This document shows positions 6,001 through 25,700 of a stretch of DNA of 64,000 bases, in pieces. Made by a program: the position numbers and the translations under genes. The notes below the pieces were generated by a model, which saw only the letters and a program-made list of their open reading frames with translations, made no database searches and was not told the origin of the DNA. Location: NCBI RefSeq assembly GCF_015326965.1, contig NZ_CP017659.1:4716001-4780000 (forward strand), read 5' to 3'. Source of the DNA: Paenibacillus sp. JZ16. GTDB taxonomy: Bacteria > Bacillota > Bacilli > Paenibacillales > Paenibacillaceae. Each line of letters begins with the position of its first letter. Within the stretch, counting starts at the first letter, position 1.

Positions 6001-9000
6001 TCAACGGCAAGTGATTTTGGTGAGAGGGTATGGAAAGATAGCGAATTTTGTTATGTACAGGAAGCTGCCAAAAACCGCGGCGAAGAAATTCAACGTATCT
6101 ATCCATTGGCTCCTGTGCAAGAGGGAATGCTCTATGAGAAGCTTTTGGATGAATCCTCTACGAAGTATGTTGTTCAGCAGACGTTGCGATTGACGGAAGT
6201 AGATGTAGAGAAGATGCACAAGGCTTTTGAATATCTAGCAACACAGCATGATATTTTACGTACAAAGATCTGTTATCGGGGAGTAAGTGTACCAAGACAA
6301 GTTGTATTGAAAGAAAGAATGCCGGAATTTAATTATATGGAAGTAGATAATGAATCTGATTATCTTGATTTAAAAGAACAAGATGTAAAACGTGGATTTG
6401 ATTTGGAAGAAGATACACTACTTCGTATGAATTTGATAAAAATAAAGAACAGTGGTTATCGGTTGATCATGACGAACCATCATATTATTTTAGATGGTTG
6501 GTGTTTGCCAATTTTGCGTAAAGAATTATTTAGTGCGTATATGGCAACAGATGAAGAACAATTAAAAATACTTAATCAGGCTGCTTCTAATAAAATTGGG
6601 AGCTATGAAAAATTTGTAGATTATATCAATGAAAAAGATAAAGAGCCGAGCCTTAAATATTGGGAAGACCTTCTTCAAGGATATGAGACAAGGGCTGAAA
6701 TTTTACCTATGGGTCGTCCAGAAGAAACAGAAGAAGAGAGTCAGAGTCAAGAGTTTAAGTTAAGCTTGGAGGTAACCGAACAAGCAGAAGCGATATGTGC
6801 CAAGTATGATGTAACATTGAACACGCTAGTAGAAGCTTGTTGGGGCGTTTTATTGGAAAAATACAACTCAACCAATGATGTCGTTTTTGGAAAAGTTGTA
6901 TCTGGTAGAAATGCAGAGATTGAAGGTATTGAAGAAATCGTTGGTTTATTTATCAATACCATACCCGTACGTATATCGACAACAAACGAAGACACATTTG
7001 CCGATTTGTTGAAATCATTACAGAGCCAGGCAATTGCTGCAAATGAACACGATTTTCTTCCTTTAGCAGAAATACAGAATCATACTTTATTAGGAAGGAA
7101 TCTAATTGGAACACTATTCTTCTTTGAAGGCTATCAAGGAACAAGTATAAATATTGATGGCAAATTAAATGTGGAGTCTGAATATTACCGCGAACAAATC
7201 GGGTATGACTTGGGAATGACAGCATTTAAGAGTGATGAAAATCGTATTCATTTTAGAATTCTGTTCAGTACAAAGCTATATAACAAGGAAGAAATAAATA
7301 TTATTGGTTCCCATTTGCAAAGACTTATGGAACAAGCCATTGCAGCACCACAGACGAAATTAAATGAATTGGGCATGACAAATGAAGCAGAAGAAAAGAT
7401 TCAATTAGTACAGTTTAACGCAACGGACATCGACTATCCAAGAGACAAGACCATTGTCCAATTATTTGAAGAACAAGTAGCAAGAACACCCCATAATACA
7501 GCAGTAGTATGCGGGAATGAGCAATTGAGTTACGCTGAATTAAATGCTCGTGCCAATAAACTTGCATTAAGGTTACGACGGGAATACCATGTCCGGCCTG
7601 ATGATTTTGTTGCGATTATAGCAGAAAGAAGCTTAGAGCTGGTGGTCGGATTGTATGGCATCCTAAAGTCGGGTGCAGCATATGTACCAATTGACCCATT
7701 TTATCCAGAAGAACGCATTGCGTATATCTTGGAGGATAGCCAGCCGAAAGCGGTTTTAATTGGTCATGGAAAGTATAATATTTCTCCTGAAAAGGTTGTT
7801 GACTTATATAGTGCAAGCAATTATGAGGAAGGTGCAGAGAATCTAGAACATGTGAATACTCCTCATGATCTTATTTATCTGGTTTATACATCGGGTACAA
7901 CAGGAAAACCAAAAGGGGTTATGGTAGAGCATCAGCATATAGTCAATCAGCAGATGTGGACACAAAGAGAATATCCATTGCACGAGGGAGAATCCCTTTT
8001 AATGAAGACCACTTGTGCCTTTGATGTTTTTGCCTGGGAAGTATTTTGGTGGATGTTAGCAGGTGGTAAACTTGTTATTTTGCAACAAGGAGAAGAAAGT
8101 CAAAGTGATAAGATCATCAAGGTAATTCAGGATTATCAAGTAAATGCAATCCAGTTCGTTCCTTCAATGTTCAATATGTTTTTAGAAGAATTAGATATGA
8201 GCAAAGAGGAAATCAATACTCTACGTTATATCATTAATATTGGTGAGAAACTGAATGCAGAAAGTGTGAGACATTATAATCAATTAAGGGAAAAAGGACA
8301 AGTAAGAGCAGAACTACTGAATCTCTATGGTCCAGCAGAAACTACAGTTAATTCCAGTGGGTATCAATGTCCAACAGGCTTAGATGTAGATAAAGTATTA
8401 ATTGGTAAGCCTATTAGTAATACACAAATTTATATATTATCAAATGAAAAAACAGCTGGAATAGGTGTACCAGGGGAATTATGTATTGCAGGAGAAAGTG
8501 TGTCGCGTGGATACTTAAATCGTAAAGAATTAACAGCACAGAAATTTATTAAAAATCCTTTTGGTTCAGGAATGATGTATAAAACAGGTGATCTGGCACG
8601 GTGGATGCCGGATGGAAATATCGAGTATCTTGGCCGTATAGATGATCAGGTTAAGATAAGAGGTTTCAGAATCGAACCAGGAGAAATCGAAAGTACTTTG
8701 ATGGAACTCGAAGGAGTTAGTGGAGCAGCCGTTGCAGTACGCCAAGACAAGCAAGGAGAAAAATATCTGTGTGCTTATGTAGTCGTTCAGACAGAAGTGG
8801 AAAAATTAGACGAAGATACAATCAAGAGTGAATTACGCAAGAAGTTACCAGACTATATGGTTCCTTTATATATGATTCGAATTGATCAAATTCCATTAAG
8901 TCATAATGGAAAGCTGGACAAAGCCGCACTACCAGAACCAGAATACAAGTCTAAGGAATATGCAGCACCAACAAATAGAGAAGAGAAGTTAGTAGTTGAA

Positions 9001-12000
9001 GCATTTGAGAAAATCCTTGGAATAACAGAAATTAGTGTCCATGATAGCTTTTTTGACTTGGGTGGTCATTCATTGAAAGTTACATTATTGTGTAATGAAT
9101 TAGAAAAGACAATCGGTATAAAGCTGCAGCTTAGTGAAATATTTGCTTTATCTACACCAAAACGTATTGCAGAAAGAATTGGAAGTTTGCAATATGATAG
9201 TTTTTCGGAAATACCGAAAATAGCTAAAGCAGAGTTCTATCCTATGAGTTCTGTTCAAAAGCGACTGTATCTTCTCAATGAGATAGTAGGTCCTAGTATT
9301 TCCTATAACATTTCGAATGTCATAAAATATGAAAACACTCTGGATAAAGAGCAGCTACAGAGAGCATTAGATAAACTCTTAGAGAGAGAAGAAATATTGA
9401 GAACGAGCTTCCATCTTATTAATGGGGAGCCAGTTCAAGTAATTCAACCAGATGCGAGAGTAGTATTAGAATACAAAGAAGCAGATACACTAGATATTCA
9501 AGATGAATATGATCGTTTTGTTTGCCCATTTGATTTATCCAAAGCACCTTTGATGCGGGTTAAGTTACTACAGGCGCCACAAGCTTCATACTTGATGCTG
9601 GATATTCATCATATTGTTTCTGATGGAGAAAGTCTGCCTATTATGATGAACTGGATAAGCGAGTTATATGAAGGAAATACTTTACCAATGCCAAGGGTTC
9701 ATTATAAAGATTTCTCTGCTTGGCAAATGACTCAGGATATTACGAAGCAGGCGGCATATTGGAAGAACGAGTTCTCAGGCGAAATTCCAATACTCAATTT
9801 GAATACAGATTTCCAACGTCCTAAGAAAAAGAGCTTCAATGGTGCCGACGTAAAAACTAAGATTGAAGAACCAGTTTTTATGGAAATAAAAGAATTAGCA
9901 AAGAAGCATGGTGCTACGGAATTCATGATTATGTTATCAACCTTTATGCTTCTAATGAGCAAATACAGTCAACAGGAAGAAATAGTAGTTGGAACTCCTG
10001 TATCAGGCAGAACCCACGTTGATACACAAGAAATGCTGGGGATGTTTGTAAACTCCTTGGCGATCAAAGGAAAAGTGAAACAAGAGGAGAGTTTTGAACA
10101 AGTATTGCTTGGAGTAAAAGAAAAATGTCTTCGTGCGTATGATAATCAGGACTTTCAATATGAAGACTTGGTTGAGGCAGTAGATGTAAAGAGAGATTTA
10201 TCAAGAAATCCATTATTTGATGTAATGTTTATGATGCCAGAGAGTGAAATTATGTCTGGTTCAAAGAGCATTATGAGTGGAACATGGGTACCAATGGAAG
10301 GAAAAGTAGCTAAGTTTGATCTGAATTTAATGGTAATACACACATCAGAGGGTTATATGGTCAACTTAGAGTATTCTACAGATTTATTTAAACAAGAAAC
10401 GATAAAGCAAATGGTGGATGATTATGTTTTATTGCTTTCGGAAGTTATAAAGCATCCAGAAGATCGTTTGCAAACTCTACTTAAGAGAGAGGACGTTAAG
10501 AAAGAGGAAAAAGATTCGACCCAAGCAGAGCTTGATAATCGTGCCAATCATCTGGCGCAGCAAGTTTCAGATTTGATGCAAGCATTGCATCAAAGAGATC
10601 AAGCTTATTGGAAGAGCAAAGTAGAGAATTTCCCACATGCGCCACAGTTACCGCTTCTTTTTAACGGGAATGCTGTAAACAACGCGACAGTGAAACGTTT
10701 AGAAACGAAAATTTCTGCGAAAGACTGGGCGATTGTAAGAAACAAAGCTTTGGATAACAGAATTGCACCATCTGCGTTATTGTGCACAATATATGCGGAA
10801 GTTCTATTTAAATGGAGCAATCAATCCAACATGGCTCTTAGCTTAAATCTGTTTAGTAATCAGCCTTTTCACCAAGATGGAATGTCTCTGATGAGGGATT
10901 TTGTATCAAAATTGTTATTAGATATCGATTTATCATCTCACAGACCATTTTGGGAAAGAACTACTGAGATACAGAAGCGGTTATTTGAAGCGTTAGACCA
11001 CAGATTTTACAGTGGGGTTGATTTCCTGCGTGATCTGGCTGAAAACCGCGGTCAAGAAGATCAAGCTATAATGCCAATTATATTTACGAGTATGCTTCGT
11101 GACGAAGCGGATTCTTTCAATGCCAATATAGGCAGTAGGGGAGAATTGAAATACGGAATAAGCCAGACCCCTGAAGTATTTTTGGACTTTCAAGTTGCGG
11201 AAAGCGACGGACAATTAATGATGACTTGGGATTATGTGAAAGATTTGTTTGACGAAGATATGATCAGTGCGATGTTTGAAACGTATCAACTTCGCTTACA
11301 GCAAGTCATAGACCATAATCTTTCAACTATGCCGTTGCCTGTAACACAGTCTGAACTACTGCTTGATTACAATCGTACACAAGGAGACTATGAAGGGGAT
11401 TTACTGCAAAGATTAATAGACCAGCAATGCCAGAAGACGCCAGATGCGATTGCAGTCAAATTAGGACAGGATACATTGACCTATGGCGAGTTGGCGAGAA
11501 AATCCAATCAGGTCGCTCGCTATTTAGCAGAGCAAAACTATGCGCACAATTCTTATATTGGCGTTTGGGCAGAGAGACGAATCGAGACCATTGTAAATAC
11601 GGTGGCTATTTTAAAAGCCGGCCATGCTTATATTCCTGTGAATCCGGAACATCCTGAGGAAAGAATAGAATATATCGTGGAACATAGTGATATCAAGCTC
11701 ATGATTCATCCGGATTTATATGAAAAAGAGAACCTGTCCACCTATAACGATGGCGCCTTGGAATCGGTAGAAGACTGCCAGCAGGATAAAGCCTATGCTA
11801 TCTATACGTCAGGAAGCACGGGACAGCCTAAGGGGGTTGTGATCACCCATGAGGCAGTCGTGAATACACTATTAGATATTAATGAGAGATTCAAAGTAGG
11901 CAGCGAAGATAAAATCATTGCCCTATCATCGATGAGCTTTGATTTATCTGTCTATGATATTTTTGGAGCACTCATTAGCGGAGCCCAGTTAGTATTAATT

Positions 12001-15000
12001 CCAGATCTCTTAGATGTGGCCAGCATTCATCAGATCATGATCGAAGAAGAAATCACGATATGGAATTCGGTTCCGGCCATTATGGATATGTATTTGGAGA
12101 ATACAAAACAAGATACATTGCAGAGATCTACAGCAGAACGATTACGTATTGTGATGCTAAGTGGAGACTGGATTTCTCTTGGTTTGCCGGAGAAAATCAA
12201 AACAAGAATGCCAAAAGCACAAGTCATCGGGTTAGGTGGAGCAACGGAAGGCTCTATATGGTCCATCTATTTCCCAATCACAGAAGTGAAGCCAGAGTGG
12301 AAAAGTATCCCTTATGGATATCCGTTGAAAAATCAACAAATTTACGTACTGGATGAATGTGGAGAAGAATGTCCAGTAGGCGTTCCAGGAGAACTGCATA
12401 TTGGTGGAAAAGGAGTCGCCGTAGGCTATCTCAATGAAGAAGAGAAGACGAAGGCTGCCTTTATCAACCATAGATTCGGGTATCTGTACAAAACAGGTGA
12501 TTATGGTGTAATGCGTGCGGAAGGATATGTAGACTTCCTTGGAAGAAAAGATAGTCAGGTAAAGATACGTGGACATCGTGTCGAGCTAGGAGAAATAGAA
12601 CACTGTATCAATCATTTGCCAAATATTCACCAGTCCGTAGTCGCTGATTATAGTGATTCCCATGGAGAGAAGCAGCTGTGCGGGTATATTGTTGCCGATG
12701 AGACAGTAGAATTGGCAGAAATAAAAAGCGAGTTAACCAAATATCTACCTGATTATATGGTCCCAGCACAATTCATACAGGTAGATGAGATTCCACTATC
12801 TGCAAATGGTAAAGTAGATCGTAAATTATTGCCGGATCCAGAAAAGCATATGGAAAAAAGTAAGATGATAAGGGGTTATGAGGCACCAGAGACCCAGACG
12901 GAGAAATTGGTAGTCGAGGCATTTGAATATGTGCTTGGTATGGAAAGAGTAAGCGTAAATGACAATTTCTTTGATTTGGGTGGATACTCGCTTAATGTAA
13001 TCCGGCTGTGTAATGAATTAGAGAAGAGTACAGGGGTAAGGCTGCAACTTAGAGAAATTTTTGATTTAGTTACACCGAAGAATATTGCAGAAACAATTAA
13101 AAACTCAAAGGTAAATACGTATGAAGAAATACCAGAAATAGCAGAAGCAGAAAGCTATTCTATAAGTTCAGCTCAAAAGAGACTTTATCTTCTAGACCAA
13201 CTAACAGGTCCTGGTACAACTTATAATATTCCTTTAGTCATCAAGCTTAAAGTTAAACCAGACAATGAGCGACTTCAGAGAGCATTGGATCAATTAGTAG
13301 AGCAAGAGGAAATTTTGAGGACAAGTTTCCATATAGTTAATGGTGAGCCAATTCAAAAAATTTCTTCAGATGCAAGAATTGTGCTGGAGCACAGTGAAGT
13401 AAATACAGCAGATTCACAATATATCCAAGCTGAATATAATACTTTCGTCCAACCATTTGACCTGTCAAAATCACCACTAATGCGTGCAAAAATACTGGAT
13501 ACTCCAAATGATTCATACTTATTTTTGGATATTCACCATATTTTATGTGACGCAGAAAGCATGCCGATTATGCTCTACAAAATACAAGAGTTATATGAAG
13601 GAAGAGAACTGTTAACACCACGAGTACAGTATAAAGACTTTTGTGTTTGGCAAAATGCTAGAGATATAACAGAACAGGCAGCGTACTGGAAGAAAGAATT
13701 TTCTGGTGATATACCAGTCCTGGATTTAATCATGGATTATCCACGCCCTCATAAACAAAGCTTTAAAGGTGCTAATTTCCGAACACAGGTAGAAGAAAAC
13801 ACGAGTATTCAAGTAAAAGAGTTAGCGAAGAAGTATGGTGCAACTGAGTTTATGGTTTTGTTATCCATCTTTTTCTCCATGTTAGGAAAATACAGTCGAC
13901 AGGAAGAAATTATAGTAGGAACTCCAATATCGGGACGAAGCCATACGGATACCCAAAATATGTTGGGCATGTTTGTAAACACTCTGGCAATCAAAGGGAA
14001 TGTCTCCTCCGATGATTCATTTGAGGATGTATTATTAGGTATAAAAGAGAAATGTTTACAGGCATACGATAACAAGGATTATCAGTTCGAAGATTTGGTT
14101 GAAGCCGTGGGAGTAAAGAGAGATTACTCAAGAAACCCAGTATTCGATGTGATGTTTGTATTGCAGGACGATGAGAAAGAGAATTACTCGGATCGAATTC
14201 AATTTGGAACGAGGGAATCCGTTGAAGGGAGTATTTCTAAATTTGATCTTACCTTAACCATGATAAGTGATTCAGAAGGCTATAAGATTGATTTTGAATA
14301 TTCTACGGACTTATTCAAACCAGAAACGATCGAGTACATGGCAAAACACTTCTTAACACTAATTGAACGAGTTTTAATGTCTCCGGAAAAGAAGCTGCAG
14401 GATATTGCCATGGTCGATATGAACGAAGAAGCAAAAATATTGGATGAGTTCAATATGACGGATGCAGAATACCCTCATAATAAGACGATTGTGCAGTTAC
14501 TTGAAGAGCAGGCTGCCAGAATACCTAATAGTACAGCAATTACATTTAATGGACAACAGCTGACCTATGCACAATTAAATGAACGGGCGAATGCTTTGGC
14601 AAGAAAACTTCGAGAGGACCATAACATTCAACCCAATGACTTTGTGCTTATCTCAACAGAGAAATGTTTGGAGATGGTGGTGGGCATATACGCTATTTTA
14701 AAGGCTGGAGCAGCTTATGTACCCGTTGATCCATCTTATCCAGAGGAAAGAATTAATTATATCATCAATGACTGTAAACCAAGGGTAGTATTATGCGGTA
14801 CAAAAGAACCTGAAGCTGACATTCCTATCATGAATCTTCATGATGAGGCAAATTATACAATGGAATGCAGTAACCTTGTCCATGTAAATCAATCAAGTGA
14901 TTTGATGTATGTTATTTATACCTCTGGTACGACTGGCAGGCCAAAGGGTGTTATGGTTCAGCATGTAAATGTAGTGCGATTACTTAAGAATGACAAGTTT

Positions 15001-16704
15001 AATCTTGATTTATATGAAAATGATATTTGGGTTCAATTCCATTCTTATTGTTTTGATGTTTCGGTTTGGGAAATATTCGGAAGCCTATTGAATGGAGCAA
15101 AGCTTGTAATTCCTTCTGAAGATACGGTAAAAGATGGATATGCATTTGGAGAGCTGTTGCAAAAAGAAGCGGTAACAATCTTATGCCAGGTACCTTCGCC
15201 ATTTTATGCGCTGATCGATGCAACGACAGGACAAACAATAAATAGTTTACGATATGTTATTTTTGCAGGAGAGGCACTTTATCCAGCACATTTGAAGAAA
15301 TGGCATGAGAACAATAGGCATTGTCGTCTGGTTAATATGTACGGGCCTACAGAAACCACGGTATACGCTACTTATCGCGATATTGATGCTGAAGCCATTG
15401 AGAGAGGAATTAGCGACATAGGAAAGCCACTTCCAACATTAAAGATTTATATCTTAAATGGAAATGAGCTTTGTGGAATTGGAGTTCCAGGTGAGTTATG
15501 TATAACGGGTGAGGGTGTATCTCAAGGATATTTAAATCGACAAGACCTGACAGACGAGAAGTTTGTACACAACCCATTTGGAGCCGGGAAGATGTATCGG
15601 ACAGGTGATTTGGCACGTTGGTTACCTAACGGAAACATTGAGTATATTGGACGTATGGATGACCAAGCAAAAATTAGAGGATATCGTATTGAACCAAGAG
15701 AAGTAGAAAGCCGTTTATTGGAGCTTGAAGGGATAAGTGAAGCTGTAGTAGTAGTGCGAGAAGACAAAAAGAAAGAGAAATTTTTGTGTGCCTATATAAT
15801 AGCTGAGACAGAAATAGAAGAAAGGAATGTAAAGATTAAGTTAAATAAAGTATTGCCAGATTACATGGTGCCGGCACATATTATTTCAATTGATGCGATT
15901 CCACTGACAAGTAATGGGAAACTTGACAAAGCCTCATTACCACAGCCGCAGTATAAGTCAAAGGAATATATTGCACCACGAAATGAATATGAAACGCTGA
16001 TCGTACAGGCATTTGAGCACATCCTGGATATTGAAAATATCAGTGTAACTGATAATTTCTTTGATCTAGGGGGATCGTCACTGAAAGCAGTGCTCTTGTG
16101 TAATGAATTGGAGAAAGCTATAGGAGTAAGACTGTCAATTAGAGATATTTTTACTTTTGGTACGCCTGAGCAGATAGCGGAAAATATGGGGTCGATAGAG
16201 AACGAGATGTTTGTGGCAATAGAACAAGCTTCAGCAGCTGAATACTACCCTACAAGTTCAGCTCAGAAACGACTCTATCTTCTGGACGAGATGACCGGAC
16301 CTAACATTAACTACAACGTATCGGATGTCTATGCCTACGAAGAACCGCTGGATAAAGAAAGATTACAGAAAGCTTTGGATAAGCTGTTACAGCAAGAAGA
16401 GATACTGCGAACTAGTTTCCATGTTGTGGACGGTGAACCCATTCAAACGATTTCTCCAGACGCAAGGGTTTTATTAGACTACAGCGAAGTGGACGCAATA
16501 GATGTACAAACAGAATACGATAAATTTATACAACCATTTAATTTATCCGAAGCACCGTTGATGCGTGTGAAATTAATGAAGACAACAACGGCTTCCTACC
16601 TATTTGTTGATATTCATCACATTATATGTGATGGAGAAAGCCTGCCGGTTATACTGCATCAGGTGAACGAATTTTATGAAAATGATGAAACTGATCATGA
16701 ATAA
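1..16704 (+). CDS. NRPS 1: FAAL-ACP-Cy-A(Cys)-PCP-E-C-A-PCP-C-halfCy-A(Cys)-PCP-C-A-PCP-C(N-lobe); 5' partial
   Basis: Giant lipopeptide synthetase; the frame is open to the left edge, so the start lies outside. Domains by nucleotide: fatty acyl-AMP ligase 1-1290 (SSGSTGNPKG core, first part missing); ACP 1360-1570 (GVSSL, Ser at 1438); heterocyclisation domain 1610-2930 (FPVTEIQGAY, then DLLIADGGS fitting DxxxxDxxS at 2011-2037); A domain 2960-4430 with pocket residues read as DLYNMSLIW, close to the Cys code; PCP (GGDSIKA); E 4710-6000 (HHMIMDVISWR, MEGHGRE, NYLGEL); C 6090-7390 (HHIILDGW); A 7450-8940; PCP; C 9230-10480; C-terminal half only of a second Cy 10580-11370; second Cys A domain 11390-12840; PCP (GGYSLN); C 13150-14420; A 14480-15940; PCP; and only the N-lobe of a C domain, ending in TAA at 16702. 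Predicted role: activate a fatty acid, condense it with Cys and cyclise to a thiazoline, then extend. The A domains at 7450 and 14480 could not be assigned a substrate. Pocket residues were aligned by eye to GrsA. Confidence 0.95.
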   Translation, partial: TFRESYEAINLKYLEYETLASNMEEGQCVAVDCQDLAYIQYSSGSTGNPKGVKLTHENLVYNLAQIVDRMKLDKNDVMASWLPLTHDMGLIGYHLTPIFAGISHSLLNSGTFLKKSWLYLQKCAQLKATVLVSPNFGLDWMMKTVKDSHLEHIDLSSVRNIMCGAEPISMDTIRRFYEKFSSSGLRENTIHQVYGMAEASLAVTIPEEGHNRSVCINRHKARIGQEVEDLETKEPNAAEFAIVGEPLHELEILIVDDEDHILKENYIGNIVIKGKNVFEGYMNHDSSPFSEQGFFHTGDLGFLRNGELIVMGRKKDILFVNGQNYYASDIENMLTLAIPQLSQVVVCGVRNPSSIRDEIIVFVHNRQDAKVFLPLAHQVQNMVLERIGIAADYVIPIKTIPKTTSGKVQRYLLIERFENHEFDDVIAIAPYSYQSIKESAKKPAWNKAEIENQIVEIAKEVFSIPTLKVDDTISRMGVSSLTLIRFQDEINQRFQVEIPIVSLFKMSTLEQIITIVEEQLQVEDVQTFELTGNKDMWYEPFPVTEIQGAYLVGRQNIMEMGNISTHAYYEFETELDIKRLNDALNHVLERQLMLRTIFDDTGMQKVRRSASSYEICIEDLQDLSLEDQQKRILEKRNRRSHFVFQQDHWPLFELSAFILGEKKNYLFLDIDLLIADGGSLLILIQEIMDYYEKPNMEIEPLTFQFSDYVRALESFRESSAYQRAQDYWQAKIEDFPYAPQLPFVCEPESIERPTFQRMEKSLTTDKWNIVKGLATQYGVTPSVFLCTIYAEVLGKWSNQSRMALNLTLFNRQSFHPDVMKLIGDFTSVLLLDIDLSVHSAFWERASMVQDILFEAVDHRFYSGVDVIRNIASKREMTSKAIMPIVFTSMLFDKSEFTDILPKLGEIKYGISQTPQVFLDFQVTERDGQLIMTWDYAKDLFDEDMISAMFETYQLRLQQVVDHNLSSMPLPVIQYQLLLDYNRTQGDYEGDLLQRLIDRQCQKTPDAIAVKLGQDTLTYGELARKSNQVARYLAEQNYAHNSYIGVWAERRIETIVNTVAILKAGHAYIPVNPEHPEERIEYIVEHSDIKLMIHPDLYEKENLSTYNDGALDLLEGCEQDKAYAIYTSGSTGQPKGVVITHEAVVNTLLDINEKFKVGSEDKIIALSSMSFDLSVYDIFGALISGAQLVLIPDLLDMSSIHQIMIDEEITIWNSVPAIMDMYLESTKQDTVHSTSAELLRIVMLSGDWISLGLPEKIKTRMPKVQVIGLGGATEGSIWSIYFPITEVKPEWKSIPYGYPLKNQQIYVLDECGEECPVGVPGELHIGGKGVAAGYLNEEEKTKAAFINHRFGYLYKTGDYGVMRAEGYVDFLGRKDSQVKIRGHRVELGEIEHCIHHLPKIRQSVVADYSDSHGEKQLCGYIVADETIESTEIKRELAKYLPDYMVPAQFIQVDEIPLSANGKVDRKLLPNPEKCIEESKMIRDYEAPKTQTEKLVVEAFEYVLGMERVSVNDNFFDLGGDSIKAIHILNKIREAGYDISMRNLLMERTPKLIAMNLSTKKEIIPAEQGEISGEISLTPIQNYFFAQNMMDPEHFNVCQVFKVREKLNALALQKALSALVQHHDMLRATYKDKKQVIGKVEDKKWYGFTTIACESEEIQEKIKSTKVKMDLAEGPLLQAVVFSTPEQDYMMLLAHHMIMDVISWRILSEDLEKGYSQALNQKEITLPAKTVSFKVWSEGLAHYSQSEKLKRRVAYWSEIENKLVDGKLKEDSTDHEFEPKTAVACLNATITEKLLKESAHAYNTEINDLLVAALGRAVNKVTGQRTLAIQMEGHGREETVGSFDLGRTIGWFTSIYPVVLEELGTNIAQDIRNTKENLRRVPAHGIDYGLIKYADMVNSEGMDVEVAPDISFNYLGELETKKGSGDPNFEFSQLGYGQDTDPRNQFGPSINVIGHVQNGSLSMTVTCNSSRYLAERIEQIGKAYEEELIAVAEHCSHAQKSESTASDFGERVWKDSEFCYVQEAAKNRGEEIQRIYPLAPVQEGMLYEKLLDESSTKYVVQQTLRLTEVDVEKMHKAFEYLATQHDILRTKICYRGVSVPRQVVLKERMPEFNYMEVDNESDYLDLKEQDVKRGFDLEEDTLLRMNLIKIKNSGYRLIMTNHHIILDGWCLPILRKELFSAYMATDEEQLKILNQAASNKIGSYEKFVDYINEKDKEPSLKYWEDLLQGYETRAEILPMGRPEETEEESQSQEFKLSLEVTEQAEAICAKYDVTLNTLVEACWGVLLEKYNSTNDVVFGKVVSGRNAEIEGIEEIVGLFINTIPVRISTTNEDTFADLLKSLQSQAIAANEHDFLPLAEIQNHTLLGRNLIGTLFFFEGYQGTSINIDGKLNVESEYYREQIGYDLGMTAFKSDENRIHFRILFSTKLYNKEEINIIGSHLQRLMEQAIAAPQTKLNELGMTNEAEEKIQLVQFNATDIDYPRDKTIVQLFEEQVARTPHNTAVVCGNEQLSYAELNARANKLALRLRREYHVRPDDFVAIIAERSLELVVGLYGILKSGAAYVPIDPFYPEERIAYILEDSQPKAVLIGHGKYNISPEKVVDLYSASNYEEGAENLEHVNTPHDLIYLVYTSGTTGKPKGVMVEHQHIVNQQMWTQREYPLHEGESLLMKTTCAFDVFAWEVFWWMLAGGKLVILQQGEESQSDKIIKVIQDYQVNAIQFVPSMFNMFLEELDMSKEEINTLRYIINIGEKLNAESVRHYNQLREKGQVRAELLNLYGPAETTVNSSGYQCPTGLDVDKVLIGKPISNTQIYILSNEKTAGIGVPGELCIAGESVSRGYLNRKELTAQKFIKNPFGSGMMYKTGDLARWMPDGNIEYLGRIDDQVKIRGFRIEPGEIESTLMELEGVSGAAVAVRQDKQGEKYLCAYVVVQTEVEKLDEDTIKSELRKKLPDYMVPLYMIRIDQIPLSHNGKLDKAALPEPEYKSKEYAAPTNREEKLVVEAFEKILGITEISVHDSFFDLGGHSLKVTLLCNELEKTIGIKLQLSEIFALSTPKRIAERIGSLQYDSFSEIPKIAKAEFYPMSSVQKRLYLLNEIVGPSISYNISNVIKYENTLDKEQLQRALDKLLEREEILRTSFHLINGEPVQVIQPDARVVLEYKEADTLDIQDEYDRFVCPFDLSKAPLMRVKLLQAPQASYLMLDIHHIVSDGESLPIMMNWISELYEGNTLPMPRVHYKDFSAWQMTQDITKQAAYWKNEFSGEIPILNLNTDFQRPKKKSFNGADVKTKIEEPVFMEIKELAKKHGATEFMIMLSTFMLLMSKYSQQEEIVVGTPVSGRTHVDTQEMLGMFVNSLAIKGKVKQEESFEQVLLGVKEKCLRAYDNQDFQYEDLVEAVDVKRDLSRNPLFDVMFMMPESEIMSGSKSIMSGTWVPMEGKVAKFDLNLMVIHTSEGYMVNLEYSTDLFKQETIKQMVDDYVLLLSEVIKHPEDRLQTLLKREDVKKEEKDSTQAELDNRANHLAQQVSDLMQALHQRDQAYWKSKVENFPHAPQLPLLFNGNAVNNATVKRLETKISAKDWAIVRNKALDNRIAPSALLCTIYAEVLFKWSNQSNMALSLNLFSNQPFHQDGMSLMRDFVSKLLLDIDLSSHRPFWERTTEIQKRLFEALDHRFYSGVDFLRDLAENRGQEDQAIMPIIFTSMLRDEADSFNANIGSRGELKYGISQTPEVFLDFQVAESDGQLMMTWDYVKDLFDEDMISAMFETYQLRLQQVIDHNLSTMPLPVTQSELLLDYNRTQGDYEGDLLQRLIDQQCQKTPDAIAVKLGQDTLTYGELARKSNQVARYLAEQNYAHNSYIGVWAERRIETIVNTVAILKAGHAYIPVNPEHPEERIEYIVEHSDIKLMIHPDLYEKENLSTYNDGALESVEDCQQDKAYAIYTSGSTGQPKGVVITHEAVVNTLLDINERFKVGSEDKIIALSSMSFDLSVYDIFGALISGAQLVLIPDLLDVASIHQIMIEEEITIWNSVPAIMDMYLENTKQDTLQRSTAERLRIVMLSGDWISLGLPEKIKTRMPKAQVIGLGGATEGSIWSIYFPITEVKPEWKSIPYGYPLKNQQIYVLDECGEECPVGVPGELHIGGKGVAVGYLNEEEKTKAAFINHRFGYLYKTGDYGVMRAEGYVDFLGRKDSQVKIRGHRVELGEIEHCINHLPNIHQSVVADYSDSHGEKQLCGYIVADETVELAEIKSELTKYLPDYMVPAQFIQVDEIPLSANGKVDRKLLPDPEKHMEKSKMIRGYEAPETQTEKLVVEAFEYVLGMERVSVNDNFFDLGGYSLNVIRLCNELEKSTGVRLQLREIFDLVTPKNIAETIKNSKVNTYEEIPEIAEAESYSISSAQKRLYLLDQLTGPGTTYNIPLVIKLKVKPDNERLQRALDQLVEQEEILRTSFHIVNGEPIQKISSDARIVLEHSEVNTADSQYIQAEYNTFVQPFDLSKSPLMRAKILDTPNDSYLFLDIHHILCDAESMPIMLYKIQELYEGRELLTPRVQYKDFCVWQNARDITEQAAYWKKEFSGDIPVLDLIMDYPRPHKQSFKGANFRTQVEENTSIQVKELAKKYGATEFMVLLSIFFSMLGKYSRQEEIIVGTPISGRSHTDTQNMLGMFVNTLAIKGNVSSDDSFEDVLLGIKEKCLQAYDNKDYQFEDLVEAVGVKRDYSRNPVFDVMFVLQDDEKENYSDRIQFGTRESVEGSISKFDLTLTMISDSEGYKIDFEYSTDLFKPETIEYMAKHFLTLIERVLMSPEKKLQDIAMVDMNEEAKILDEFNMTDAEYPHNKTIVQLLEEQAARIPNSTAITFNGQQLTYAQLNERANALARKLREDHNIQPNDFVLISTEKCLEMVVGIYAILKAGAAYVPVDPSYPEERINYIINDCKPRVVLCGTKEPEADIPIMNLHDEANYTMECSNLVHVNQSSDLMYVIYTSGTTGRPKGVMVQHVNVVRLLKNDKFNLDLYENDIWVQFHSYCFDVSVWEIFGSLLNGAKLVIPSEDTVKDGYAFGELLQKEAVTILCQVPSPFYALIDATTGQTINSLRYVIFAGEALYPAHLKKWHENNRHCRLVNMYGPTETTVYATYRDIDAEAIERGISDIGKPLPTLKIYILNGNELCGIGVPGELCITGEGVSQGYLNRQDLTDEKFVHNPFGAGKMYRTGDLARWLPNGNIEYIGRMDDQAKIRGYRIEPREVESRLLELEGISEAVVVVREDKKKEKFLCAYIIAETEIEERNVKIKLNKVLPDYMVPAHIISIDAIPLTSNGKLDKASLPQPQYKSKEYIAPRNEYETLIVQAFEHILDIENISVTDNFFDLGGSSLKAVLLCNELEKAIGVRLSIRDIFTFGTPEQIAENMGSIENEMFVAIEQASAAEYYPTSSAQKRLYLLDEMTGPNINYNVSDVYAYEEPLDKERLQKALDKLLQQEEILRTSFHVVDGEPIQTISPDARVLLDYSEVDAIDVQTEYDKFIQPFNLSEAPLMRVKLMKTTTASYLFVDIHHIICDGESLPVILHQVNEFYENDETDHE
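2721..4556 (+). repeat. Copy 1 of a 1.8-kb intragenic duplication (Cy end plus Cys A domain)
   Basis: This segment aligns to 11151-12986 at a constant offset of 8430 bases (2810 codons), checked at several points without any indel. Long runs are identical. Similarity falls at the PCP serine region, where copy 1 continues into an E-type PCP (GGDSIKA) and copy 2 into a C-type one (GGYSLN). Upstream the Cy sequences stay homologous but clearly diverge. Confidence 0.9.
11151..12986 (+). repeat. Copy 2 of the Cy-end/Cys A-domain duplication
   Basis: Partner of 2721-4556 at constant offset 8430. It encodes the second Cys-type A domain with the same pocket residues. Upstream of it only the C-terminal half of the Cy domain is present. 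Confidence 0.9.
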
Positions 16705-16715
16705 GAGGAGAACTT

Positions 16716-19700
16716 ATGAATAAAAATTCTAACCGAATCCAGTATAAAGATTTCAGCGTATGGCAGAATTTTTATGATATCTCAAAACAGGAAGAATATT
16801 GGAGGAGGGAATTCGCTGGTGAAATTGCCAGGGTGGATTTGAAGACGGATTTCCTCCGTCCTCAAATCCAGTCTTTCAGGGGAGCCAATGTTGTAGCAAA
16901 GGTAAAAGAGCCATTAAGCTCAGGGGTGAAAAATTTAGCCCTAAAGTATGGTGCTACTGAATTTATGGTTACTCTATCAGTGTTCATTTTATTATTAGGC
17001 AAATATAGTCGCCAAAAAGATATTATTGTAGGAACAACCGTATCAGGCCGAGTTCATGCAGATACTAAAGGTATGCTGGGGATGTTTGTCAATACTCTGG
17101 TAATAAAGGGAGAAGTTTGTCCTGATGATACTTTTGAGCATTTGATTTTAGCTGTGAGGGAGAAGTGTCTGCAAGCATATGATAACCAAGAATACCAATT
17201 CGAAGATTTAGTTGAAGCCGTAGAGAAGAAAAGAGATCTCTCAAGAAATCCGATATTTGATTTTATGTTCGGATTAAAAGAAAAGAAAAAACCGACGGAA
17301 ATGCAAGGCCTATTGGGCGGGAAAAGTGCATCTATTAAAAGAAATGTTTCAAAGTTTGACTTATCCGTTCTGGTTGAATGTGTGTCAGAAGGGTATGAAA
17401 TTGATTTTGAGTATTGCATAGATTTATTCAAACAAGAAACGATTGAATATATGGCAAGGCATTATGTAACGCTGCTTGAGGAAGCAGTAACACATCCAGA
17501 AAAAAAGCTTAAAGATTTGCATATGCTTGATATCAGGGAACAAGAGAAGATATTGGTTGATTTCAATGCAACGAATGTAGAATACGCTCGAGAACAAACA
17601 GTTGTCAGCTTATTTGAGAATCAGGTAGAGAAAACAGCAGAACATATTGCACTTAAATTTGATGATAAACAGATGACATATGCCGAGCTGAATGAGAGAG
17701 CAAATCAGTTGGCGCGTACTCTTCGGGATTTAGGAGTGGTTCCAAACGATTTGGTGGCTCTAGTTACAGAGCGTAGCATGGAAATGATTGTAGGAATATT
17801 AGCAATCATCAAGGCAGGGGGAGCTTATGTACCCATCAATCCGGAATATCCAGATCATAGAATTCGCTATATGCTGGAGGACAGTAGTCCAAAGATTGTA
17901 TTGACGTATAAGAATAAGTTGCCAGGGAAGGTAGAGATTCCGGTATTGGATTTAGAAGATGAGAATCATTATGCTAATGAAACGGACAATCTTCTGCATG
18001 TTAACAGAGCTAATGATTTAGTGTATTGTATCTACACTTCGGGTACAACTGGAAACCCTAAAGGAGTTTTAATTGAACATCGAAATGTGGTCAATATGTG
18101 GGTCACCTATAAGGAAACATTTGCACTGAACGACAAGGATACGGTGCTGCAATTTGCAAATGTATCTTTTGACCAAGCGGTTGGTGATATCTTCCCTGCA
18201 CTTTGCAATGGTGCGGCATTATGTATTGTACCAAAAAATTTAACCTATGATATGGAGCAACTACAAAAATATATAGATCGAAATAATGTAACAACAGCAT
18301 CATTGACACCTAAGGTAATAGAAGGGTTGTGTGTTGAAGCATTACCGACACTTCGTTTGCTGGAGTCAGGTGGAGAGGCAGGTCGTCTAGAGACTTTAAA
18401 AGAATGGGCGAAAAGAGTAGAAGTGCTAAACACATATGGGCCTACGGAATCTACTGTAAATGCAACTAGTTTTAGAGTGAACACAGACTCTACTTCCATT
18501 ACCATTGGACGTCCGATTGCAAATACAAAGGTATATCTTCTAAATGGAATGGAGCTATGCGGTATTGGAATACCTGGCGAGTTGTGTATTGCAGGAGATG
18601 GTTTAGCAAGAGGTTATTTGAATCAGCCAGAATTGACTGATAAGAAGTTTATTGAAAATCCCTTCGGTGAGGGAAAACTGTACCGTACAGGAGATTTAGC
18701 ACGTTGGCAGCCAGATGGAAATATAGAGTATTTAGGTCGTATAGATGAACAAGTGAAAGTCCGTGGTTACAGGATAGAGTTAGGGGAAATTGAAAGTGTA
18801 TTAAGAAAACAGAGTAACATCACTGATGCTGTCGTTGTTGTAAAAGAAGTTGGAAACGATGAAATTCTCTGTGCATATCTCATTGCAGAGAAGGGTCAAG
18901 AATTAATTATACCCGAAATTAAGGAAGCGATAAGAGAAGAAGTAACGGAGTATATGATTCCTGCCTTTATGATACAGATCGATGAATTTCCACTAACCAT
19001 AAATGGAAAGCTGGATAAAACTAGATTGCCAGAGCCAGATATGTTAGAAAGCTTGAAATACGTACCACCAAGTAATAAGACGGAGCAAGCAATCGTAGAT
19101 GTATTTGAGGAAATTCTAGGAGTATCTCCAGTCGGAATAGAGGACAGTTTCTTTGAATTGGGTGGACATTCGTTAAAAGCAACGACAGCAATTAATGTAA
19201 TAGAGAAGAAAACAGGGATTCGTTTGCCAGTCAAAGAGATATTTAGTTCACCAACTCCTGCCATGTTGGCGAAAAAGATTGAGGCCGCGGGAGAAGGCGA
19301 ATATAGTCCAATACCACAAGCAGAACAGAGAGAAGTTTATCCAGCATCCTCTACACAGAAACGATTGTTTATTCTGGATCAGATGGAAGGCAGTAGTACA
19401 GCATATAACATGGCTTCAGCGCTAGAAGTAACAGGTAATCTTGATTTGGAAAAAATACAACAAGCCATAGATCGCCTGATCGAGCGTCATGAATCGCTGC
19501 GAACCAGTTTTGTCATGACAGAAGGAGAAACCTTTCAAGTCATTGCAGACGAGGTATTCTACCCAGTGGAATATGAAGAAACCGACAGCTACAGCGAAGC
19601 AGATATGGAGCAATTTGTACGCCCGTTTGACATCGGAAAAGCCCCACTTATGCGTTTTAAAGTAGTCAAAGAAAGAAATCGGAACAAATATATTCTTCTA

Positions 19701-22700
19701 TTTGATATGCACCATATTATTTCCGATCACAAGACGCTAAATCTATTAATCGAAGATTTCTCACGATTGTATAACGGTGAAAGATTACAACCACTTGAAC
19801 TCCAATACAAAGATTATAGTGAATGGATGCGTGGCAGAAATCTGGAGAGTCAGAGGGACTATTGGAAAGAAGTATTTAAAGAAGAGGCACCGGTTCTGGA
19901 TTTGGTGACGGACTATCCACGTCCAAAAATCCAAAGTTACAAAGGAGCACAAGTGTCGGTTCAGCTTAGTAAAGAACAAAAAGTTGGCATTCAAAATATA
20001 AATAAACAACATGGAACGACAGATTACATGACCTTACTGGCTGTATTTATGATAGAACTGCATAAATACAGCAGGCAACAAGATATCGTGGTAGGAACAC
20101 CCATCTCAGGCAGGGTGCATCAGGATACTGAGACGATCGCAGGCATGTTTGTCAATACGCTAGCCATGAGAGGATATCCAAGGGATGAGAAAACGTTCTT
20201 GGAATTTTTAAGCGAGATCAAAGAGCTGGCATTGAATGCGTATGAGAATCAAGAATACCCATTTGAAGAATTGGTAGAGGAAGTAGAAGTACGCCGTGAT
20301 CTGTCACGCAATCCGCTGTTTGACGTGATGTTTACCATGCAGAATAACGAAGACATCCATCTTGCGATGGGCGAAGCCCAAGTCGACATGTTGGGCATTC
20401 CTTTCATTGATGCCAAATTCGATTTGGATTTACAAGCGACAGCGTATGAAGACGGGTACGCTTTAGATCTGGTCTATTGCAGTGATTTATTTACCCAGAC
20501 TTCAGCACAGGTCATGCTGGAACATTTTAAGGTATTGCTGGATAGGGTGATTGCTAACCCTGAAATGAAATTGTCTGAACTAAACATGGTCAGTGAGGTA
20601 GAACAACACAGAATACTAACGGTTTTCAATGATACCCATACAGAGTATGCACAGCATCATACGGTAGTAGAGCGATTCGAGAAACATGCGGAACAGACAC
20701 CTGAGAAGACGGTAATCGAATACGAAACGGGAGTACTTCGTTATGGAGAAGTCAACCGAAAGGCAAATGCATTGGCATGGGAACTGATTTCGTTAGGTGT
20801 TCAGCCCAATGATCGAGTGGCCATCATGACTACCCTGGAAGCGGAAACGATGATTGGGATTTTAGGCGTGCTAAAGAGTGGAGCCGCCTATGTACCGATT
20901 GATCCAGCGACTCCGAAGGAACGAATCGAGCATATCCTGAACGATGCAGCACCCAAAGTCATCTTAACAAGAGAGAAGAAGCTGGAAACGGAAATCCCAT
21001 GTATCTCTATGAATCTGGAGGACCTGGGCGAGAAGGCGGAAAACCCAGCGTGTGCCGTTGAACAAGACGACATCGCCTATGTGATTTACACATCAGGAAC
21101 GACAGGAAAGCCCAAAGGCGTGGCGGTTACACGAGGTAACTTGGATCATTACTTGTCGTATGCAGATCAAGAGTACCAGAAAGAAGCTTGTACGACGGTA
21201 TTAATGACAAGCTTAAGTTTCGACCTCTCCGTAACTTCCTTGTATTTACCGCTGATTAGTGGTGGATGTCTTCTATTAAAGGGAGGGGACACGGAGGAAA
21301 GGTTACGTGCAGCATTAAAAGATAACAGGGTAACCTTCCTTAAGCTTACTCCTTCTCATTTAAAGATGCTGGAAACCTATGCGGACGGCGTAGATGTACC
21401 GAATTTAGAAGCGCTGATTGTCGGTGGAGAAGAGTTAACAACAGATACGGCATGGAAAACGCAGAAGCTATTAGGAGACAACGTCAAGATTCATAACGAA
21501 TATGGCCCTACAGAGACTACCGTAGGATGCTGTGACTATGTCTATTCCAAAGAAAAAGATAAGGGTTTAAGTGTAGGAATCGGGAAACCCATTGCCAACA
21601 TGCAGCTATATATACTGAATGAGATGGAGTTATGTGGTATAGGCATTCCTGGTGAGCTATGCATCGCAGGAGACGGAGTAGCCAAAGGATATTTAAATCA
21701 GCCTGAATTAACAGCGAAGAAGTTTATCGATAATCCCTATGGCGAAGGGAAGTTATACCGCTCTGGAGATTTGGCGAGATGGCTGCCTAACGGGGAGATC
21801 GAATACCTGGGAAGAATAGATGAACAGGTTAAAATCCGAGGATATCGGATCGAGTTGTCCGAAATCGAGAGCGTTCTAAGGAATCAGCCGGGTATATTGG
21901 ATGTAGCGGTTGTAGCATTGGAAGTAGGCGGTGACAAGCGTATATGTGCCTACCTGATCCCGACAAATCAAGAGCAGAAACTGGATATGCCTGAAATTAA
22001 AAATGATTTGAGAGAAAAACTGCCCGAGTATATGTTACCTGGCTTTATGATGCAGATCGATGCATTGCCACTGACTCCAAATGGGAAGCTGGATACAAAG
22101 GCACTGCCAGAACCCCATGCATTAGCGGGACAGGAATATATGCCACCAAGAACTAAAACAGAGAAGGTCATTACGGACGTATTTGAAGAAATCTTAGGCA
22201 TATCTCCAATTGGAATAGAAGACAGTTTCTTTGAACTGGGTGGACATTCGTTAAAAGCGACGACAGCAATTAATGCCATAGAGAAAAAGACAGGAATTCG
22301 TTTGCCAGTGAAAGAGCTATTTGGTTCACCAACTCCTGCCGTCTTGGCGAAAAAGATAGAGGCCGCGGGAGAAGGTGCATATAGTCCAATACCCAAAGCA
22401 GAAAAGAGACAAACTTATCCGGCATCCTCTACACAGAAACGATTGTTTATTCTGGATCAGATGGAAGGCAGTAGTACAGCATATAACATGGCGTCAGCGC
22501 TAGAAGTAACAGGTAATCTTGATTTGGAAAAAATACAACAAGCCATAGATCGCCTGATCGAGCGTCATGAGTCGCTGCGAACCAGTTTTGTCATGACAGA
22601 AGGAGAGACATTTCAAGTCATTGCGGACGAGGTATTCTACCCAGTGGAATATGAAGAGACCGACAGCTACAGCGAAGCAGATATGGAGCAATTTGTACGC

Positions 22701-25700
22701 CCGTTTGACATCGGAAAAGCTCCACTTATGCGTTTTAAAGTAGTCAAAGAAAGAAATCGGAACAAATATATTCTTCTATTTGATATGCACCATATTATTT
22801 CCGATCACAAGACGCTAAATCTATTAATCGAAGATTTCTCACGATTGTATAACGGTGAAAGATTACAACCACTTGAACTCCAATACAAAGATTATAGTGA
22901 ATGGATGCGTGGTAGAAACCTGGAGAGTCAGCGAGACTATTGGAAAGAAGTATTTAAAGAAGAGGCACCGGTTTTGGATTTGGTGACGGACTATCCACGT
23001 CCAAAAATCCAAAGTTACAAAGGAGCCCAAGTGTCGGTTCAGCTTAGTAAAGAACAAAAAGTTGGCATTCAAAATATAAATAAACAACATGGAACGACAG
23101 ATTACATGACCTTGCTGGCTGTATTTATGATAGAACTGCATAAATACAGCAGGCAACAAGATATCGTGGTAGGAACCCCCATCTCCGGCAGGGTGCATCC
23201 GGATACCGAGACGATCGCAGGCATGTTTGTCAATACGCTAGCCATGAGAGGATATCCAAGGGACGAGAAAACGTTCCTGGAATTTTTAAGCGAGATCAAA
23301 GAGCTGGCATTGAATGCGTATGAGAATCAAGAATACCCATTTGAAGAATTGGTAGAGGAAGTAGAAGTACGCCGTGATCTGTCACGCAATCCGCTGTTTG
23401 ACGTGATGTTTACCATGCAGAATAACGAGGAAATCCATCTTGCGATGGGCGAAGCCCAAGTCGACATGTTGGGCATTCCTTTCATTGATGCCAAATTCGA
23501 TTTGGATTTACAAGCGACAGCGTATGAAGACGGGTACGCCTTAGATCTGGTCTATTGCAGTGATTTATTTACCCAGACTTCAGCACAGGTCATGCTGGAA
23601 CATTTTAAGGTATTGCTGGATAGGGTGATTGCTAACCCTGAAATGAAATTGTCTGAACTCCACATGGTCAGTGAGGTAGAACAACACAGAATACTAACGG
23701 TTTTCAATGATACCCATACAGAGTATGCACAGCATCATACGGTAGTGGAACGATTCGAGAAACATGCGGAACAGACACCTGAGAAGACGGTAATCGAATA
23801 CGAAACGGGAGTACTTCGTTATGGAGAAGTCAACCGAAAGGCCAATGCATTGGCATGGGAACTGATTTCGTTAGGTGTTCAGCCCAATGATCGAGTGGCC
23901 ATCATGACTACCCTGGAAGCGGAAACGATGATTGGCATTTTGGGCGTGCTAAAGAGTGGAGCCGCCTATGTACCGATTGATCCAGCGACTCCGAAGGAAC
24001 GAATCGAGCATATTCTGAACGATGCAGCACCCAAGGTCATCTTAACAAGAGAGAAGAAGCTGGAAACGGAAGTCCCATTCATCTCTATGAATCTTGATGA
24101 TCTGGGCGAGAAGGAGACAAATCCAGCGTGTGCTGTTGAAAAGGGCGACATCGCCTATGTGATTTACACATCAGGAACGACAGGAAAGCCCAAAGGCGTG
24201 GCGGTGACACGAGGTAACTTGGATCATTACTTGTCGTATGCAGATCAAGAGTACCAGAAAGAAGCTTGTACGACGGTATTAATGACAAGCTTAAGTTTCG
24301 ACCTCTCCGTAACGTCCTTGTATTTACCGCTGATTAGTGGTGGATGTCTTCTATTAAAGGGAGGGGACACGGAGGAAAGGTTACGTGCAGCATTAAAAGA
24401 TAACAGGGTAACCTTCCTTAAGCTTACTCCTTCTCATTTAAAGATGCTGGAAACTTATGCGGACGGCGTAGATGTACCGAATTTAGAAACGCTGATTGTC
24501 GGTGGAGAAGAGTTAACAACAGATACGGCATGGAAAACGCAGAAGCTATTAGGAGACAACGTAAAGATTCATAACGAATATGGCCCTACAGAGACTACCG
24601 TAGGATGCTGTGACTATGTCTATTCCAAAGAAAAAGATAAGGGTTTAAGTGTAGGAATCGGGAAACCCATTGCCAATATGCAGCTATATATACTGAATGA
24701 GATGGAGTTATGTGGTGTAGGCATTCCTGGTGAGCTATGCATCGCGGGAGACGGGGTTGCTAAAGGCTATTTAAACCAGCCTGAATTAACAGCGCAGAAG
24801 TTTATCGACAATCCCTATGGAGGAGGGAAGTTATACCGCTCTGGAGATTTGGCGAGATGGCTGCCTAACGGGGAGATCGAATACCTGGGAAGAATAGATG
24901 AACAGGTTAAAATCCGAGGATATCGGATCGAGTTGTCCGAAATCGAGAGCGTTCTAAGGAATCAGCCGGGTATATTGGATGTAACCGTTGTTGCATTGGA
25001 AGTGGGCGGTGACAAGCATATATGTGCATATCTGATCCCGACCAATCAAGAGCAGAAACTGGATATGTCTGAAATTAAAAATGATTTGAGAGAAAAACTA
25101 CCCGAGTATATGTTGCCTAGCTTTATGATGCAGATCGATGCATTGCCACTAACTCCAAATGGTAAGCTGGATGCAAAGGCCCTGCCAGAACCCCATGCAT
25201 TAGAGGGACAGGAATATGTGCCACCAAGAACTAAAACAGAGAAGGTCATTACGGAAGTATTTGAAGAAATCTTAGGCATATCTCCAATTGGAATAGAAGA
25301 CAGTTTCTTTGAACTTGGTGGAGATTCTATTAAAGCGATTAAGGCAGTTTCGAAGTTGCGGGAAAAAGGTTATAAGCTATCTTTCGCAGCATTAATGTAT
25401 CAGCAGACACCAAGAAAGATTGGGGAAAATATTCAAAAGGGAGAAGTAAGTCAAGTATACGAACAGGGAGAAATCAATGGGGAAAGTTCTCTAACTCCTA
25501 TACAACTAGAATTTTTCAATAAGCGTCACATCGTACCCAATCATTTTAATCAGGCCTTAATGTTAAGAAGTGATGAGCCGTTTGACATACCTAGTTTAAA
25601 GACAGCAATTACTGAAATCATTAAACATCATGACGCCTTAAGAAATGTATATGACGAACAACGTCAAATCACGCTGTCTACAGAGGAAAGCAAGCTATAT

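Follow-up and report, generated by a model that had tools for sequence, protein, structure and literature searches.

The 64-kb window analyzed here (the whole stretch of 64,000 nucleotides at positions 4,716,001 to 4,780,000 of contig NZ_CP017659.1, part of the 7.42-Mb single-contig genome of Paenibacillus sp. JZ16) opens with two adjacent forward-strand genes for subunits of a nonribosomal peptide synthetase (NRPS), between which a single condensation (C) domain is divided. The first, open reading frame 1 (ORF1; 5701 aa), begins 401 bases to the left of the window, at contig position 4715599, and occupies 1..16704; the second, ORF2 (3768 aa), occupies 16716..28022. Domain orders were obtained from a reading of motifs together with matches to our own hidden Markov model (HMM) of the C domain (440 positions), the FAAL, ACP, Cy and E labels being assigned by motif only. 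ORF1 reads FAAL-ACP-Cy-A-T-E / C-A-T / C-(extra Cy C-lobe)-A-T / C-A-T / C N-lobe, and ORF2 reads C C-lobe-A-T / C-A-T / C-A-T-E / terminal C-like domain. On sequence grounds the product of this line is probably a lipopeptide.

The N-lobe of the divided domain spans 16243..16692 of the forward strand (HMM positions 1-153) and is followed by a short ORF1 tail (16693..16704), comprising the last three residues, DHE, which are disordered in the structural model, and the stop codon TAA at 16702-16704. An intergenic gap of 11 nt on the same strand (16705..16715) carries the ribosome-binding site GAGGAG, and the C-lobe follows at 16725..17573 (HMM positions 154-440). The PF00668 profile matches positions 3-167 on the N-lobe side (16240-16704; 117 bits) and positions 170-456 on the C-lobe side (16731-17555; 208 bits), and because these matches cover adjacent parts of the profile they point to one C domain divided between ORF1 and ORF2, with its two lobes lying in separate polypeptides as opposed to the single polypeptide of a PF00668 C domain. 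The core motifs of C domains, C1-C7, are complete over both halves, with C1-C3 in ORF1, including HHIICDG at 16615-16635, and C4-C7 in ORF2. An earlier reading of this DNA from its letters (the sequence-only reading) had placed the end of the first NRPS right after the N-lobe, in agreement with these positions, and had the second NRPS begin with the first block of the C-lobe; that block is present, although IQYKDF is not at the very start of ORF2, being preceded by the seven residues MNKNSNR. Alignment with intact sibling domains bears out its further claim that nothing but the linker, the stretch from YEG to QYKDF, is absent or replaced. In the C domain of module 4 (13156..14460, forward strand), which served as the reference for this comparison, the equivalent linker is RELLTPR, between YEG and VQYKDF.

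The two genes lie in different frames, in a -1 relation. The frame of ORF2 is closed upstream by TGA at 16698-16700, with no ATG, GTG or TTG between this stop and the ATG at 16716, and GAGGAG (16705-16710) lies 5 nt 5' of that ATG, so that the separate ribosome site, the other frame and the upstream stop of the sequence-only reading are all confirmed. Promoter-like sites near the junction are fewer than in shuffled sequences. The facing termini, which are disordered in models of the isolated lobes, contain no dedicated docking element, there being only seven residues before IQYKDF and 0-8 after the matched N-lobe in ORF1-type proteins, and no intein halves were found at the junction, either terminus being without spare sequence.

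This arrangement recurs beyond the window. Two protein searches, with 120 matches listed for each, provided the relatives, and 227 proteins were scanned with the C-domain HMM. Among the 120 proteins listed in the first search, on which the ORF1 comparison drew, all seven relatives fetched stop at the N-lobe (P0083, P0080, P0077 of Mobilisporobacter, P0076, P0100, P0113 and P0017 of Enterocloster; 56-95% identical over 3,572-5,724 columns). Each aligns to 8 residues or fewer from the end of ORF1 and ends at HMM position 150-153 of 440, and the tail after the matched N-lobe has 0-8 residues in the ORF1-type proteins, with none at all in P0113 and P0017. One of these entries, P0083, is a cluster of 371 sequences named Bacillus velezensis; P0095, which ends near the end of the N-lobe (HMM position 141) with a 30-residue tail, was not counted. 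On the ORF2 side, 45 of the 120 matches listed in that first search have their start at the C-lobe, namely P0102, P0108 and 43 that carry the NSNR start, and the other 75 do not. No fused orthologue is present among the proteins seen, and the strain is not, as the sequence-only reading had allowed, a lone broken copy. The split is carried in Bacillus, Paenibacillus and Lachnospiraceae, to which both named Clostridia relatives belong; within the genus, the region is full-length in 2 of 99 other genomes and split in both.

At the DNA level, the 11-nt gap and the start recur in all four named loci (L035-L038, from B. velezensis, two Paenibacillus and Mobilisporobacter), with GAGGTG replacing GAGGAG in the Mobilisporobacter locus L038. 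That a sequencing or assembly error has interrupted one continuous gene is scarcely credible: NRPS genes are indeed repetitive, and the draft relative G069 is frameshifted elsewhere in ORF2, but the same arrangement is seen in five assemblies (the window and L035-L038), the same break occurs in proteins down to 56-66% identity, and it is accompanied by two frame signals, a ribosome site and conserved start residues.

Both lobes are under purifying selection. By the Nei-Gojobori method, the ratio of nonsynonymous to synonymous substitution rates (dN/dS) against L035 to L038, in that order, is 0.063, 0.101, 0.081 and 0.186 for the N-lobe and 0.075, 0.107, 0.143 and 0.097 for the C-lobe; a value of 0.708 for the segment 5' of the N-lobe against L035 was discarded as misaligned. 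Moreover, C1-C7 and HHxxxDG are present in 4 of 4 N/C pairs of the split family examined and in a second case described below, the halves P0113/P0102, P0100/P0108 and P0289/P0245 having been paired by the equal length of their source contigs. In phylogenetic trees six split N-lobes form one group (support 98) and four split C-lobes another (support 99), with no fused row in either. The nearest fused set is that of the module-3 C domains, with a support of 92 in the N-lobe tree and only 35 in the C-lobe tree; the module-3 domain of ORF1 itself (9235..10527, forward strand) is the nearest fused relative of the split N-lobe.

These observations bear on the idea that the halves are relics, the line being cut at this point, with the C-lobe an inactive start-module remnant and the N-lobe an idle tail. 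Truncated C-lobes do exist at NRPS N-termini: excerpts of the literature report a truncated C domain as the remnant of a start module (PMC7253712) and a terminal truncated C domain of 133 residues (PMC8739492), and the C* domain of the thermoactinoamide protein ThdA is called "probably inactive" in the former excerpt (PMC7253712). Likewise, of the 67 proteins in our scan of 227 that start inside the C-lobe, 20 begin later than the split or appear truncated by the end of a contig. However, those 20 start at HMM positions 162-382, whereas the split C-lobes start at 151-155, include the complete QYKDF block and have an N-lobe partner adjoining; both halves retain all motifs and a low dN/dS, and an idle N-lobe would be unconstrained. 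We therefore regard relic halves as improbable.

A ribosomal frameshift, fusing the frames in a fraction of ribosomes and leaving the short ORF1 as a by-product, would be favored by the -1 relation and 11-nt gap found in the window as in each of the four named loci, and by a joined linker of tolerable length. The junction, however, has no slippery heptamer by inspection, the mRNA structure around it is no better than that of shuffled sequences (z -0.06), ORF2 possesses a ribosome site and start of its own, and the tails of the ORF1 relatives vary in length and sequence and are absent from P0113 and P0017 (distant relatives such as these were compared as proteins, the junction DNA being that of the window and L035-L038). 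Such a fusion appears very improbable.

The structural predictions are consistent with halves that function as separate polypeptides. AlphaFold2 models of the isolated lobes have a confidence (pLDDT) of 92.6 for the N-lobe and 85.6 for the C-lobe, the segments below 50 being the new termini and a C-lobe loop at residues 192-206, and each lobe is thus predicted to fold autonomously. The best fold match of both models is the TycC PCP-C didomain 2JGP, of which profiles of the halves cover residues 96-244 (N-lobe) and 246-520 (C-lobe); the break therefore sits between the final helix of the N-lobe and the helix with QYKDF.

A hint at the mode of pairing comes from charge. The ORF1 N-lobe has a net charge of -13 and the ORF2 C-lobe one of -4, and none of 718 fused C domains shows a polarization (C minus N) of at least 9; the polarization of the other three family pairs is reached by 0, 7 and 25 of the 718, although the four pairs represent one clade and the lobe slices differ slightly between the split and wide sets. 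The shift is located partly in a lysine-rich C-lobe loop between motif C7 and KFDL (17262..17351, forward strand; net +5), a candidate pairing element whose middle, residues 192-206, is the disordered loop segment of the isolated C-lobe model. The equivalent loop is +7 in P0102 and P0108, and a value of at least +5 is found in none of 441 fused domains, these being the part of the 784 in which the loop pattern could be located. Since these charge and loop comparisons were made post hoc, the acidic N-lobe and lysine-rich C-lobe loop are offered as a post hoc hint at how the lobes may pair. A "latch" of the C-lobe that reaches the N-lobe is described in an excerpt of PMC11546977, and the lysine-rich loop is a candidate counterpart of it.

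Taken together, the split of the C domain in its inter-lobe linker is real and conserved, and it is very probably functional. In our favored explanation ORF1 and ORF2 would be consecutive subunits of one lipopeptide NRPS that divide the C domain of module 5 between them, with ORF1 terminating in the donor lobe, which bears HHxxxDG, and ORF2 opening with the acceptor lobe. The half-domains, produced from neighboring cistrons that are probably translationally coupled, would fold separately and then associate noncovalently into a working C domain competent for amide bond formation, and the same lobe-lobe structure would both make the peptide bond between modules 4 and 5 and dock the subunits, with no need of a COM or other docking domain. 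It is highly likely that the two lobes pair in trans in this manner to join the subunits. The observed support consists of the position of the break, the intact motifs, the conservation across genera and the selection on both halves; with the predicted folding, this sustains the view of the sequence-only reading that a genuine split would need assembly in trans, an assembly that we infer. Several points weigh on the other side. Conservation and dN/dS demonstrate selection on the halves as opposed to contact between them, the argument for pairing in trans draws on sequence and single-chain models, and the constant -1 relation in five assemblies would formally permit a rare frameshift fusion; the literature searched yielded no paper on the ORF1/ORF2 cluster.

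A wider generalization, that splitting of C domains between the lobes is a recurrent natural way of joining NRPS subunits ("catalytic docking"), with specificity residing in the lobe interface and conferred here by charge, is tentative and in our judgment somewhat doubtful. If true, one upstream subunit could serve downstream subunits of differing module number. The relevant variation exists: ORF2 forms of 2742 aa, P0031 (B. velezensis) and P0057 (B. thuringiensis), are without one of two near-identical C-A-T modules, the tandem modules 6 and 7 of ORF2 (19335-25500), and the first 800 residues of P0031 are still 95-98% identical. Forms of 2742 aa and ~3770 aa are both named B. velezensis, as is the ORF1 cluster P0083, so one ORF1 would appear to serve both, which suggests flexible use of downstream partners.

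A second, unrelated pair may represent another split of this kind. One 66,990-bp contig is the source of both P0289 (4930 aa), whose C-terminal end is an N-lobe (HMM positions 1-151), and P0245 (7565 aa), whose N-terminal end is a C-lobe (151-440). These lobes are most closely related to C domains elsewhere in the same two proteins and in P0018, as opposed to the split family, and a single clade is rejected by approximately unbiased (AU) tests both for all the split N-lobes (p 0.0007) and for all the split C-lobes (p 1.6e-53), on quick trees of 98 N-lobe rows, with only 148 columns, and 96 C-lobe rows, in which an odd long row (P0113_688_F) was left. The P0289 N-lobe sits on a long branch and contains an insertion of ~20 residues, and each half is represented by one member sequence. 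The charge pattern is absent from this pair, with a C minus N difference of -16 that 678 of 718 fused domains equal or exceed. Hence it is only a possible second case, and its break may be recent or a frameshift.

A further inter-lobe breakpoint lies within ORF1. An extra Cy-type C-lobe directly follows the module-3 C domain (10573..11319, forward strand) and occurs in each of the eight ORF1-type proteins examined. This lone lobe is 61% identical to the Cy C-lobe of module 1, and the A domain that follows it is 94% identical to its module-1 counterpart, the similarity beginning ~160 residues into the Cy domain of module 1 (1696-2889), near its inter-lobe linker. By these alignments the extra C-lobe and next A domain of module 3 are a copy of module 1, and inter-lobe linkers look like natural sites of breakage and recombination in the ORF1/ORF2 line. 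A separate class of NRPS/polyketide synthase proteins (for example P0246, P0297 and P0319) also starts with a C-lobe, at HMM position ~170-177 and without QYKDF; these starts are probably start-module remnants.

The gene pair as a whole appears mobile. It shares 93-95% identity with proteins named B. velezensis and 86-87% with those of Mobilisporobacter senegalensis, values that suggest horizontal transfer between orders, and because the DNA of the B. velezensis copy (97-98% identity) is as close as that of congeneric copies (94-97%), the pair seems to move horizontally as a unit. No near-identical DNA was found on plasmids, where tblastn gave only matches below 60% identity in 284 records.

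The genes downstream (3') of the pair encode an ABC transporter, a saccharopine-dehydrogenase-like and a DUF3810 protein, and a stand-alone thioesterase (32276-33025). ORF2, which has no thioesterase domain, is closed by a divergent C-like domain with HHLIWDG (26973-27446). Among the unsplit C domains HHxxxDG is kept in modules 2 and 3 and altered in modules 4 (HHILCDA), 6 (19335-20636) and 7 (22416-23714), the latter two having HHIISDH. Read by eye, the specificity codes of modules 1 and 3 appear Cys-like and those of modules 6 and 7 Asn-like. On contig 4 of G069, whose ORF2 carries a frameshift (1373 + 2524 aa), ORFs of 301, 247, 390 and 201 aa sit 3' of the NRPS genes, and these sizes match the ABC transporter/sensor kinase set located 5' of ORF1 in the window genome.

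The significance of the split derives from the practice of engineers, who divide C domains at this same inter-lobe linker and fuse the parts again; a natural, conserved split would show that the lobes can work as separate proteins. It gives two-protein assembly lines a ready-made junction, and communication between C-domain lobes would become testable by mixing and complementation.

The engineering precedent closest to the junction is that of the XUC exchange units, which are reportedly due to Bozhueyuek et al. 2019. As described in excerpts (PMC11546977, PMC10443035), these cut the C domain between its donor and acceptor sub-domains, and a comparison at the level of sub-domains, by description, places the natural break in the same linker. 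In XUC terms ORF1 ends A-T-CDsub and ORF2 begins CAsub-A-T, that is, in whole XUC-like units; the difference is that XUC re-fuses the halves covalently, whereas those of ORF1 and ORF2 remain separate. COM and other docking domains, and type S synthetases with SYNZIPs, perform the same task of handing the chain over between polypeptides (excerpts of PMC9113145, PMC10443035). They do so by adding a dedicated element at domain boundaries, the type S cuts lying in C-A, A-T or T-C linkers (PMC10443035, in excerpt), whereas the ORF1/ORF2 junction is the catalytic domain itself.

Among natural enzymes, TycC (2JGP, TycC5-6) provides the best match of both halves in sequence and fold, but as one continuous chain. 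The locillomycin synthetase, a hexamodular and nonlinear system, is likewise a lipopeptide NRPS of B. velezensis, and ORF1 with the 2742-aa form of ORF2 would also have six modules; it differs in comprising four proteins and in having Thr...Asp where the A domains of modules 1 and 3 are here near-identical (94%). An iterative line of the locillomycin type, in which the split C domain would act as a recycling gate, was considered and rejected on the near-identity of these two A domains, presumably both with a Cys-like code, and on the differing architecture.

Literature searches under the name of a split condensation or C domain returned no paper, and the closest natural counterpart, the bulbiferamide synthetase encoded by the bulb biosynthetic gene cluster (BGC) of Microbulbifer, came to light by other wording. 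In the excerpt of PMC10616845, strains with the bulb BGC make bulbiferamides, and C domains are labeled in a figure legend as "split between two polypeptides". Here too a natural NRPS has a C domain on two polypeptides, although in that excerpt the split is named in the figure legend alone, without break position or mechanism. The ORF1/ORF2 split is accordingly not the first of its kind, the bulb BGC being a precedent. Microbulbifer belongs to another phylum than the ORF1/ORF2 host, and NRPS junctions of this kind, formed by a split C domain, have scarcely been described.

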